A DNA stretch of 54,607 bases. Source: Candidatus Peregrinibacteria bacterium (GTDB lineage Bacteria > Patescibacteriota > Gracilibacteria > Peribacterales > Peribacteraceae). The notes beneath the pieces are model-generated. The model did no database searches. It saw only the letters and a program-made list of their open reading frames with translations, and was not told the origin of the DNA. Each line of letters begins with the position of its first letter. Within the stretch, counting starts at the first letter, position 1. Shown piece by piece: positions 23,728 through 27,110 of the stretch. The stretch covers positions 1 to 54,607 of the forward strand of contig JACPXZ010000003.1 in the NCBI GenBank assembly GCA_016196225.1, read 5' to 3'. A program made the translations under genes and the position numbers.

Positions 23728-23870
23728 TCCCTCTCCCGAGGGGAGAGGGCCAGGGAGAGGGGGTAGATGAATATTCCTTATTCAGCGGAACTATTTGACC
23801 CCCTCTCCTTCCTCCTTCGCTAAAGCTACGGCGGACAGGTAATCCTCCCCCCAAGGGGGAGGAAATCCTT
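23728..23870. repeat. Cluster of G/C-rich palindromic repeats, intergenic
   Basis: Two modules: CCCTCTCCCGAGGGGAGAGGG (about 23739-23759, shown here only as the core CCCTC/GAGGG palindrome) with the trailing CCAGGGAGAGGGGG, and 23799-23870 with CCCCCTCTCCTTCCTCCTTC, GCTAAAGCTACGGCGGACAG and CCTCCCCCCAAGGGGGAGG. The motif GCTACGGCGGACAGG recurs at 27040-27054 next to the split tRNA-Leu. TGAATATTCCTTA between the modules recurs at 43420 and, inverted, at 47313. Confidence 0.8.
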
Positions 23871-24403: not shown

Positions 24404-25601
24404 ACATGTCGTAGCTCGGGGCGGCAGGGGAAAGAAGGACAATGGGTTTTTGGAAGTTATTGGTTGAAAAGCGAAAGGCGGTTTGCACGACTTCTTTCAG
24501 TGTTTTTACTTCTGTGATCGTTCCGGAAAATTTTGCGTTCGTAAGAGCTTTATGAATGCGGGGGGTCGTTTCGCCAAGGAGGACGATATGTTGAATGTCT
24601 GTATCCGCAATACGTTTGGCAAGTTCCGAATAATCAAATCCGCGATTCTGTCCGCCGAGAATAATGGTATGGATGCGATTGCCAAGAGCATCAATCGCCG
24701 CCATCGTGGCATTGGGGTTAGTCGCGATTGAGTCATTCACCCATTCGATGTCACGGGATATTTCAATGGATTGCAGGCGATGGGGAAGCGGCGTAAAGGT
24801 CTTGATCGCGGCAATGGCGTTTGCTTTGGGGATATCCAGATATTCAGCGACCTTCCAAGCGGCTGCGATGTTACTCAAGTTATGAGTGCCAATAAGCCGC
24901 GTATCGATGATTGCAATTGGAGCGTCATCGGATGTGAATGGAATCTTTTTTCCGGGTGACAGGGACGCGATTCTTTTGGCTTCATCGTATATCGCATTAA
25001 AGAAGACGACATTATTTTTGGTTTGGAATGCGGCGATGTTCCTTTTTGCCTTTTTATATGCCTCCAAAGAGCCATGGTAATCGAGATGTTCCGGGAAGAA
25101 GCTTGTAATGACGGCGATCGGAGGGCTCACGGTCAGATCCATGAGTTGATAGCTGCTCATTTCCATGACGAATATTTTGGATGCGCGTGCTTCGTTAATA
25201 TGGGAAATCGCAGGGTCGCCAATATTGCCAATAAGTGAGACATCTTTACCGGATTTTTTAAGAATATGGGCAATGAGACTGGAGGTGGTGCTTTTGCCTT
25301 TGGAACCAGTGACGCCGATCACAAGAGCCTTCGAATCACGGATCGTATCCAAAAAAATTTGAGTGGAGTTTGTAATTTTTGTTTGAACGGAATGAAATTC
25401 TGGTTGAGGCGGAATCCCCGGGGATTTAATAATGACATCGAATTGATCCAGACCTTTTAGATAATCCGGTCCATCTTTTTGATCTCGAATGGAGATTGTT
25501 GCGGTTGGTGCGTATTGCTTCAGCGCTTGCTCTGCTGCCTTTCCTTCGCGCCCGTATCCAAGAATACAAACCTTTTTGTTGTTGAGTTCACGTATGCGCA
25601 T
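24336..25601 (-). CDS. murD: UDP-MurNAc-L-Ala:glutamate ligase (MurD; probably MurD2 type, L-Glu)
   Basis: 421 residues from ATG 25601. N-terminal Rossmann-like domain KVCILGYGREGKAAEQAL, ATP loop GVTGSKGKSTTS, EMSSYQL, FFPEHLDYHGS, LIGTHNLSNIAAA, WVNDSIATNPNATMAAI, and C-terminal domain with LLSPAAPSYDMFKNFEERGE. It adds glutamate to UDP-MurNAc-L-Ala. The gene overlaps the murL stop by 14 bp. In Xanthomonas, murL partners murD2, which uses L-Glu (established). That pairing, not the residues, is the basis for calling this one MurD2. An alternative start is 25622. The 3' end overlaps grpE tail-to-tail. Confidence 0.9.
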   Translation of the reverse strand: MRIRELNNKKVCILGYGREGKAAEQALKQYAPTATISIRDQKDGPDYLKGLDQFDVIIKSPGIPPQPEFHSVQTKITNSTQIFLDTIRDSKALVIGVTGSKGKSTTSSLIAHILKKSGKDVSLIGNIGDPAISHINEARASKIFVMEMSSYQLMDLTVSPPIAVITSFFPEHLDYHGSLEAYKKAKRNIAAFQTKNNVVFFNAIYDEAKRIASLSPGKKIPFTSDDAPIAIIDTRLIGTHNLSNIAAAWKVAEYLDIPKANAIAAIKTFTPLPHRLQSIEISRDIEWVNDSIATNPNATMAAIDALGNRIHTIILGGQNRGFDYSELAKRIADTDIQHIVLLGETTPRIHKALTNAKFSGTITEVKTLKEVVQTAFRFSTNNFQKPIVLLSPAAPSYDMFKNFEERGEEFGRWVQSLPLLP

Positions 25602-26835
25602 AGATGGGGAGAGAAAAGCCATTTTTCTCTGCGAGGCGGAACGCTTCACGTGTTTCTTCCGGAGTCCCGACGCATTCAAATGGTTTGCATCCTTCGAGTC
25701 CGAGGAGTTGACGGTAGATGGGGATGAGGTCTTTTTTTTCAAAGAGGTTTTCGCCAAAGATTTCCAAAACCCTTTCTTTGGGGAGATAGGCAGCGTAGAG
25801 AGCAAAGACGAAGGCACATTTGGGGCACTGGTTACACCAAAGTTTCTGTTCCCCCCTCACCCTACCCCTCTCCCCCCCATGGGGGAAGAGGGGGGAGATT
25901 ATTTTCCAGTTTTTGTTGCAACTGGTTGTGTAGTGGAAGTACTGGGGATGCTTTGCAAATTCTTTGACAATCTCTAGTTCTGTCATGTGCCGGACCGGAC
26001 TCCAATATTTCAGGTTCGAATCGATGAATGTACGAATGTACTCCTGAAAAATGTGCTCGAACTCTTCACTTTTACTCCATTGATGGTTCACCTTCGTGCC
26101 GAGATATTCGACATTCCCTTCGTTTGCGCTTTTTTCGCAGCTCATGGCGATCTGATCAAATCCGTAGAGCTCTGCGATGACGGTGCAAAGGCATGAAAGG
26201 TAACACGTGATCGGGACGTGACCGTTTAGTGCTCCTTGTTCATTTAGGTCAAATAATTGTGGATCAAGCGTGCGTTCGACCGTCAGGAGTGGCAGATCGG
26301 CAACGGTCGCGATTTCGGTAATCACGGGATGTGATCCCATCCGGAAGAGGGTGGGTTTTTGTTCCCGCAGCATTTCGAGGGTCACGATGGAATCTTTGCC
26401 ACCCCCGATGGGAAGAAGAATGTTCCCTCTCCCTTTTAAGGGAGAGGGCGAGGGTGAGGGTTGCGGAGAAACAACTCTTTTTTCGCTGACCGGAAAATTC
26501 ACCAATCCCTTTCCGTCCATCTTATTCTTATACCAAAACTCCCCCAACCCCTTCTCGTATACCGTGTTCCAAAACCGTGCCTGCGTCTCGTTCAATGTTC
26601 CCGATCGAATCTCAATGGTCTTCGGGCAGAAAGTTTTGTAATAACTAATACCACCGATTAAATGAAGTGCAAACAAGGCAGCATCAATATTTTTAGCCGC
26701 ACCCGTTCTCGGGTGCGGTACAGCGAGATTTTCGATGAATCTGATCCCATCATCCAGTGCATATCGAAGCTCAATCTGGCCCTCTACAGGGTCGAAGGAA
26801 TAAGAATCAAAGATGAAGGTGGAGTAGGACTTCAT
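25588..26835 (-). CDS. murL: MurL: UDP-MurNAc-L-Ala-L-Glu epimerase, with two in-frame repeat insertions
   Basis: 415 residues from ATG 26835. Starts STFIFDSYSFDPVEGQIELR, as MurL does, then HLIGGISYYKTFCP, LPIGGGKDSIVTLEML (144-149 GGGKDS, a PP-loop-like ATP site), HVPITCYLSCLCTVIAELYG, MSCEKSANEGN and WCNQCPKCAFVFALYAAYL. MurL uses ATP to epimerise the terminal L-Glu to D-Glu after MurD2 ligation. Two stretches with repeat-encoded sequence, SPQPSPSPSPLKGRG (about 123-137) and SPLFPHGGERGRVRGEQ (about 314-330), interrupt it without shifting the frame. A longer upstream frame runs into the tRNA-Leu genes and is not real. Overlap with murD indicates coupled translation. Confidence 0.85.
   Translation of the reverse strand: MKSYSTFIFDSYSFDPVEGQIELRYALDDGIRFIENLAVPHPRTGAAKNIDAALFALHLIGGISYYKTFCPKTIEIRSGTLNETQARFWNTVYEKGLGEFWYKNKMDGKGLVNFPVSEKRVVSPQPSPSPSPLKGRGNILLPIGGGKDSIVTLEMLREQKPTLFRMGSHPVITEIATVADLPLLTVERTLDPQLFDLNEQGALNGHVPITCYLSCLCTVIAELYGFDQIAMSCEKSANEGNVEYLGTKVNHQWSKSEEFEHIFQEYIRTFIDSNLKYWSPVRHMTELEIVKEFAKHPQYFHYTTSCNKNWKIISPLFPHGGERGRVRGEQKLWCNQCPKCAFVFALYAAYLPKERVLEIFGENLFEKKDLIPIYRQLLGLEGCKPFECVGTPEETREAFRLAEKNGFSLPIYAHT
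25850..25899 (-). repeat. G/C-rich palindromic repeat inside murL (C-terminal insertion)
   Basis: CCCCCCTCACCCTACCCCTC followed by TCCCCCCCATGGGGGAAGAG and GGGGGAG. Encodes SPLFPHGGERGRVRGEQ in frame between conserved MurL segments. Confidence 0.85.
26424..26461 (-). repeat. G/C-rich palindromic repeat inside murL (before the ATP loop)
   Basis: CCCTCTCCCTTTTAAGGGAG continuing AGGGCGAGGGTGAGGG. Encodes SPQPSPSPSPLKGRG in frame just before LLPIGGGKDS. Confidence 0.85.
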
Positions 26836-26857: not shown

Positions 26858-26881
26858 GCCGGGGTGGCGGAATTGGTAGAC
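26858..26881 (+). pseudogene. 5' part of an interrupted tRNA-Leu
   Basis: GCCGGGGTGGCGGAATTGGTAGAC carries the acceptor and D-arm of a class II tRNA-Leu. Its acceptor GCCGGGG can pair with CCTCGGC of the 3' part ending at 27110 (six Watson-Crick pairs and one G-U). It is followed by CTGCCTGCCGGAG and not by an anticodon arm. Confidence 0.7.
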
Positions 26882-26902
26882 CTGCCTGCCGGAGTGCTCG
26901 TT

Positions 26903-26987
26903 GCCATGGTGGCGGAACTGGTATACGCGCGCGACTCAAAATCGCGTCCCGCAAGGGTTGTGGGTTCGAGTCCCACCCATGGCACCA
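26903..26987 (+). tRNA. tRNA-Leu (CAA), intact
   Basis: Acceptor GCCATGG pairs with CCATGGC. D arm GCGGAACTGGTATACGC, anticodon loop CTCAAAA with CAA at 26937-26939, long variable arm (CCCGCAAGGG), T arm GTGGGTTCGAGTCCCAC and encoded CCA. Class II cloverleaf of 85 bases. It lies between the two parts of another tRNA-Leu and is flanked by CCTGCCTGC (26881-26889) and its complement GCAGGCAGG (26998-27006). Confidence 0.95.
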
Positions 26988-27051
26988 AATTAGGCACGCA
27001 GGCAGGCGCGCATCCACCTTCGCTCTTCCACTGGAAGAGCTACGGCGGACA

Positions 27052-27110
27052 GGCGACTCAAAATCGTGTGCCGCAAGGCATTGAGGGTTCGATTCCCTCC
27101 CTCGGCACCA
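27052..27110 (+). pseudogene. 3' part of the interrupted tRNA-Leu (CAA)
   Basis: GGCGACTCAAAATCGTGTGC gives the anticodon arm (CAA at 27059-27061), followed by a long variable arm (TGCCGCAAGGCA), T arm GAGGGTTCGATTCCCTC, acceptor strand CCTCGGC and encoded CCA. No matching 5' acceptor lies directly upstream; the match is at 26858. The bases just before it (GCTACGGCGGACAG) belong to a dispersed repeat. Whether a mature tRNA can form is unknown. Confidence 0.7.

Follow-up and report, generated by a model that had tools for sequence, protein, structure and literature searches.

A tRNA-Leu(CAA) gene nested in an older tRNA-Leu(CAA) gene, a probable stage of tRNA gene replacement in place

Here, we describe a complete tRNA-Leu(CAA) gene lying within a second, broken tRNA-Leu(CAA) gene. 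The window (the whole 54,607-nucleotide stretch analysed) is contig C3 of a draft Candidatus Peregrinibacteria genome (G000; 1.085 Mb, 38 contigs, completeness 97.7%). The outer gene is of an old type, spans 26858-27110, and is cut by two clean insertions (Table 1). The first (26881-27006, 126 bp) consists of a palindrome, CCTGCCTGCCG / GCAGGCAGG, that is split around a complete and different tRNA-Leu(CAA) gene at its centre, and the second (27013-27053, 41 bp) lies in the anticodon stem of the outer gene; their insertion points are GGTAGA^CGCG and GCGCA^CGACTC. The right end of the second insert, GCTACGGCGGACAGG at 27039-27053, recurs in the window at 23825-23839 and is also found in relatives.

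Table 1. Features of the nested tRNA-Leu(CAA) locus and its neighbouring gene (window coordinates)
Feature	Position	Strand	Remark
Outer tRNA-Leu(CAA), 5' part	26858..26880	+	GCCGGGG acceptor strand and D-arm up to GGTAGA; same site broken in relatives
Left palindrome arm CCTGCCTGCCG + GAGTGCTCGTT	26881..26902	+	
Inner complete new-type tRNA-Leu(CAA), GCCATGG...CCATGGCACCA	26903..26987	+	The genome's only complete CAA gene
AATTA + right palindrome arm GGCAC-GCAGGCAGG	26988..27006	+	Confined to nested tRNA-Leu loci
CGCGCA, outer-gene piece stranded between the inserts	27007..27012	+	3' strand of D-stem and start of anticodon stem
Second insert, dispersed palindromic repeat TCCACCTTCGCTCTTCCACTGGAAGAGCTACGGCGGACAGG	27013..27053	+	
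Outer tRNA-Leu(CAA), 3' part	27054..27110	+	Anticodon arm from CGACTC to CCTCGGC-ACCA
Neighbouring gene, murL-like	25588..26835	-	Conserved beside the tRNA-Leu(CAA) locus in relatives

The initial annotation, made from this DNA alone, had recognised an outer tRNA-Leu(CAA) around a complete inner one, and both genes are real. Joined without the inserts, the outer pieces give 86 nt, of which 84 are identical to the uninterrupted CAA gene of a relative (G008) without any indel, a match that for this reason is not due to chance. The seven acceptor pairs it had counted all form (7/7, one of them G-U), and the break does lie away from the site used by group I introns, at the two points given above. 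It had seen a single interruption of about 170 bp: the gene is indeed split, but by two inserts, and while both outer parts are present, the 3' part begins at 27054 rather than 27052, with 27007-27012 belonging to the outer gene as well. Save for the inserts, the outer gene is structurally sound here and in one other nested relative (G219), so that the case for its death rests on the inserts and on its fate in relatives.

The inner gene is detected by both ARAGORN and Rfam, neither of which detects the outer one; at the gathering threshold, Rfam finds three tRNAs in the window and nothing else. Annotators should thus be aware that a broken outer tRNA gene may go unseen by these programs while the gene inside it looks ordinary. 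Among the 43 tRNA matches of the genome there is exactly one complete gene for each of the five tRNA-Leu anticodons, and the sole complete CAA gene is the inner one, which is probably the working tRNA-Leu(CAA). By eye, no -10-like sequence is seen in the stretch leading from the outer 5' part to the inner gene, and a promoter scan gave no site anywhere in the region in either direction. Because that scan is blank throughout, expression of the inner gene from the outer gene's promoter is something that we infer.

What is found at this locus in relatives? The adjacent gene (Table 1), whose product we take to resemble MurL, lies near the CAA gene in nearly all relatives compared, whether their CAA locus is simple, nested or reduced to the new gene (G010 and G201, examined in short DNA stretches alone, gave no murL-like match). 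A simple old-type CAA gene (GCCGGAG/GCCGGGG acceptor) is found in G003, G006, G007, G008, G012, G015 and G016, a nested CAA gene at the murL-linked locus in G000, G013, G219 and G212, and the new type alone (GCCATGG) in G002, G004, G009, G011, G014 and G021. The two types are separate lineages, with all five inner CAA genes closer to the GCCATGG type and all four readable outer genes closer to the GCCGGAG type. Different states also occur within single genera: in g14 the gene is uninterrupted in G186-G188 and nested in G013; in g3 it is nested in G201, and in G002 the new gene stands alone and is identical to the inner gene of G201. Genus g54 holds three stages of the series at once, with uninterrupted genes in G211, G214 and G215, a nest with a decayed outer gene in G212, and in G213 the new gene alone beside a broken outer 5' remnant resembling that of G212. 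The simplest reading of this series, drawn from living relatives rather than a reconstructed tree, would be that an old gene became nested, the outer gene decayed, and the new gene was left alone.

Relatives were searched in three ways: a DNA search covered 40 genomes, a pattern for the left arm was run on 353 genomes from the class, and a gapped pattern was run on 74 from the family. These gave nine further loci with a tRNA-Leu nested in a tRNA-Leu in eight relatives, counts that are lower bounds because the patterns were exact or nearly so. Four are CAA nests (G013, G201, G212:C12, G219), three are CAG nests (G002, G003, G212:C17) and two are UAG nests (G192, G221); the palindrome arms of G013 and G201 differ from those of the other nests. 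Inner and outer anticodons are the same in seven of the seven nested loci whose outer anticodon can be read. All nine inner genes are intact. Among the outer genes, that of G013 has lost its CCA, that of G201 has an acceptor mismatch, those of G003, G212:C17 and G221 carry extra palindromes (at the acceptor-D junction, within the T-arm or within the anticodon loop), and those of G192 and G212:C12 are nearly lost. In G221 (L148, G221:C9), the palindrome TCCGCCTAGGCGGA replaces the anticodon loop of an outer tRNA-Leu(UAG) whose variable region carries another palindrome.

These loci also bear on whether an assembly or binning artefact joined two tRNA-Leu genes. The draft state of the genome, in 38 contigs, would allow for such a join, but the inserts are exact to the nucleotide and like arrangements stand at the nine other loci in eight other genomes, one of which has only 5 contigs. 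Since independent assemblies share the arrangement, it is not an error peculiar to this one, and we give an artefact practically no credence.

Here, we propose that the nested locus is one stage of in-place tRNA gene replacement and that the outer gene is a young pseudogene, a reading that we consider very likely. As read from the DNA, the locus is made of two clean and precise inserts, a palindrome at a tRNA loop and a tRNA at the palindrome's centre, and its relatives present two tRNA lineages, a series of states, and decay of the outer gene. The outer gene has the marks of a tRNA pseudogene, being an interrupted (and in relatives decaying) counterpart of a functional gene for which an intact substitute is present. 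One of the two options of the initial annotation, that the outer gene is dead and was replaced by the inner one, is thereby supported: syntenic relatives are uninterrupted, nested or hold the inner type alone, and the outer gene decays while the inner stays intact. The uninterrupted outer gene that it proposed looking for in relatives exists at the syntenic locus. What it missed was the second insertion, the palindrome as the point of insertion, and the wider family described below.

How might such a replacement proceed? In the sequence of events that we favour, a palindrome would have interrupted the ancestral tRNA-Leu(CAA) where the D-loop ends. Into the palindrome's centre would have come, in the same orientation, a complete tRNA-Leu(CAA) from a different lineage, with a second dispersed palindrome also breaking the anticodon stem. 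Owing to the palindrome in the D-loop, the locus may have broken or been cut by nucleases more readily, with repair bringing in the complete gene, either by illegitimate repair at the palindrome or by homing of a tRNA-carrying cassette. Transcription of the inner tRNA would probably start at the promoter of the old gene, with ordinary tRNA processing releasing its 5' and 3' ends. The survivors would be those loci in which a functional gene with an unchanged anticodon stayed under that promoter, which would explain both the orientation and the matching anticodon. In other lineages, the outer gene would go on decaying until the inner gene alone remained. Single-copy tRNA genes are usually thought to be stable, and here one appears to be caught while a gene of another lineage takes over its locus; states before, during and after the exchange are present in living relatives. 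The exchange seems to be of a recurring kind, in which an important gene is replaced where it stands, and to be tied to the invasion of tRNA genes by palindromic repeats.

The other option of the initial annotation was that both tRNAs are made, the insert being an intron that holds a tRNA and the outer halves being joined by unusual splicing. The structurally perfect outer genes of G000 and G219, with their compensated differences, would suit this, as would a predicted RNA fold in which the palindrome arms and the outer acceptor pair (z = -3.6). The compensated differences, however, already separate the uninterrupted gene of G008 from those of G007 and G016 and so need not postdate the insertion, and pairing of the arms is not maintained in relatives. 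Splicing would take two introns, Rfam shows none, and the tRNA splicing endonuclease (PF01974) and the RtcB ligase (PF01139) were not found in the 97.7% complete genome, whereas control genomes were positive. With neither enzyme found and the outer genes of relatives decaying, several by breaks that removal of the insert could not mend, splicing of the outer tRNA is unlikely; we rejected it as the main reading, and that both tRNAs are made seems very improbable.

Known types of tRNA intron were rejected as well. Group I introns of bacterial tRNA-Leu and protein-spliced (BHB) introns likewise interrupt a tRNA-Leu gene, but here the inserts lie outside the anticodon loop (in the D-loop/D-stem and the anticodon stem), Rfam matches no catalytic core, and the splicing endonuclease and ligase that a BHB intron would use are those not found in the genome. 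Two smaller candidates concern the arms. The arm stem folds in G000, but since its pairing is weaker in G212:C17 and G002 it is not under clear selection, and we do not regard it as a functional RNA signal. A supposed middle tRNA remnant between the arms (GCCGAAGTG...CACTTNGGCAC) is explained equally well by a 9-bp inverted repeat.

Turning to the palindromes themselves, CCTGCCTGCCGGCAGGCAGG is a dispersed 20-nt palindrome with seven exact copies in G000 and up to 13 in relatives; it is present in 13 of 40 genomes and its reversed-sequence control in none, and its many near-identical genomic copies place it among the dispersed palindromic repeats. The palindrome sites considered number 55 and come from 13 genomes. 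At least eight of them fall within an incomplete copy of a tRNA whose intact gene is adjacent (three Thr and one each of Phe, Gly, Ile, Leu and Trp), against two comparable matches at 275 random positions, and a ninth site is in a tRNA-Gln fragment of G000. Each of the nine falls at the T-loop, D-loop, anticodon loop or 7/8 junction, and at the Phe and Ile sites of G011 a GIY-YIG gene lies between the intact tRNA and the fragment. Four of the five GIY-YIG genes of G000 adjoin a tRNA gene (Leu-UAG, Gly, Glu and Gln), the exception being the one of 600 aa. A sample of 31 small GIY-YIG ORFs combined those of G000 with the best-scoring ones from 25 genomes; 14 of them have a tRNA on their own strand no more than 500 nt away. 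Both the loop bias and this linkage are to be read as coming from modest samples of one class, with shared ancestry uncorrected.

Could ordinary decay account for all of this? Chance tandem duplication of a tRNA gene, chance palindromes in the redundant copy and pseudogene loss would require no dedicated process. Such duplications are common, the palindromes are dispersed repeats, and broken 5' and 3' partial copies are frequent here beside intact tRNA genes. Tandem duplication alone, however, does not place a complete gene within another copy, and the inner and outer genes are of different lineages. Moreover, the sites in partial tRNA copies, each in a loop, are far above the small share of the genome that tRNAs occupy, and one nucleotide is hit recurrently in several phyla. 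We regard ordinary decay as rather unlikely.

That recurrence comes from a scan of GTDB contigs in which the 5' half of a tRNA-Leu had to precede the palindrome; it gave 56 stretches (CPR groups, Nitrospirae, Bacteroidetes, Ignavibacteria and Endomicrobiales) broken at the same nucleotide, GGTAGA^CGCG. An ORF of about 80 aa of the GIY-YIG type follows the tRNA-Leu fragment and palindrome in about 30 of 63 matches (a script counted 32, of which two were false when read by eye), and Pfam PF01541 matched all four of the proteins tested. Where the ORF follows, an intact tRNA-Leu of any anticodon is commonly found about 290-330 nt from the fragment; 13 of the 63 matches end at a contig or locus boundary, and many others are without the ORF and have the intact tRNA 35-125 nt away. 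L117, L105, L073, L083 and about 26 further loci, in several phyla, form elements of about 300 bp in the order tRNA-Leu 5' part, palindrome, GIY-YIG ORF of about 80 aa and intact tRNA-Leu. Proteins linked to tRNA-Leu in this way include one of 86 aa at L117 and one from Salinimicrobium.

A more specific form of in-place replacement, concerning the delivery step, is that a mobile cassette with its own complete tRNA-Leu homes into tRNA-Leu genes, destroying and replacing the host gene in one step. The flanking tRNA-Leu sequence would serve as homology, and the cuts may come from the tRNA-linked GIY-YIG nucleases. In several genera, CAA, CAG and UAG genes alike are broken at one nucleotide by the same arms, the right arm GGCAC-GCAGGCAGG occurs at nested tRNA-Leu loci alone, the GIY-YIG elements of several phyla share the palindrome and the D-loop site, and GIY-YIG genes of G000, other than that of 600 aa, adjoin tRNA genes. 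Against this, the nested loci carry no nuclease gene, the second nested group (G013, G201) has other arms, and the three CAG nests may represent one inherited event. In addition, inner and outer anticodons always match, for which a free mover would need strong selection or conversion. A search for a dispersed element consisting of the nested arms without a tRNA found none, and the parental state, a complete tRNA-Leu with an empty palindrome in its D-loop, was likewise not found. We hold delivery by a homing cassette tentatively, as less likely than not.

Equally tentative is a broader proposal, that these loci belong to a tRNA-invading mobile family whose palindromes enter tRNA hairpin loops and in which a complete copy restores or replaces the host gene, often together with a GIY-YIG gene; in Peribacteria-like genomes the tRNA would be cargo inside the palindrome and foreign genes would be exchanged in place. 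In the open-access literature searched, we found no description of nested tRNA genes of this kind or of tRNA-linked palindrome/GIY-YIG elements. Palindromes in tRNA loops, displaced tRNA fragments and adjacent small GIY-YIG genes in several phyla point to mobile DNA that targets tRNA genes and whose class seems not to have been described.

This family can be set against known systems. In phage T4, SegB lies in the tRNA region. Tested against the tRNA-linked GIY-YIG homing endonucleases such as SegB, the split-palindrome site is similar in that its relatives carry a GIY-YIG gene of about 80 aa beside tRNA-Leu, with the palindrome and the D-loop nucleotide in common. The first insert, by contrast, holds just the tRNA and its arms and no GIY-YIG ORF, such an ORF being present at the roughly 30 related loci. 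SegB is a phage homing endonuclease (PMC13096335), whereas the present elements are in cellular bacteria of several phyla and leave a palindrome-bearing tRNA fragment.

REP/BIME, Rickettsia palindromic elements and fungal mitochondrial double-hairpin elements insert inside genes and RNA loops, and the short scattered palindromes described here resemble them in this respect. The difference is that here the palindromes occupy loops in tRNA copies that are broken and have an intact copy next to them, and that one palindrome encloses a complete tRNA gene. Genomic islands at tRNA genes share the tRNA target, the displaced fragment and the restored complete gene. Here, however, no integrase lies between the gene fragments, neither insert (126 bp and 41 bp) has room for one, the break is in the D-loop, and the replacement gene stands amid the old one; an integrase-type island was rejected.

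Several minor observations concern the palindromes and duplicated tRNAs. At L109 and L116 a palindrome is inserted into the centre of another palindrome, the former, in Saccharibacteria, being one other insertion at the central position of the palindrome that the inner tRNA gene occupies here, and at L081 one tRNA-Leu fragment has two palindrome copies. At G000:C37:30900-31330 (L143, L288), a tRNA-Gln 5' fragment (TGGGGAG) has the 20-nt palindrome at position 7/8 and is followed 3' by an intact tRNA-Gln and then a GIY-YIG ORF, an arrangement like that of the tRNA-Leu elements. In L267 (G211) and L268 (G215), a duplication at tRNA-Leu(GAG) takes in about 150 bp upstream of the tRNA and, it seems, the tail of the adjoining gene as well; the GIY-YIG element lies between the two copies. 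Contigs C4, C6 and C18 of G000 (L315-L318) carry Y1 (IS200/REP-type) transposase genes and remnants, which could move palindromes. Finally, one Uhrbacteria locus and two from Bacteroidetes (L065, L097, L101) have additional 3' halves of tRNA-Leu, which lie downstream of the intact copy.
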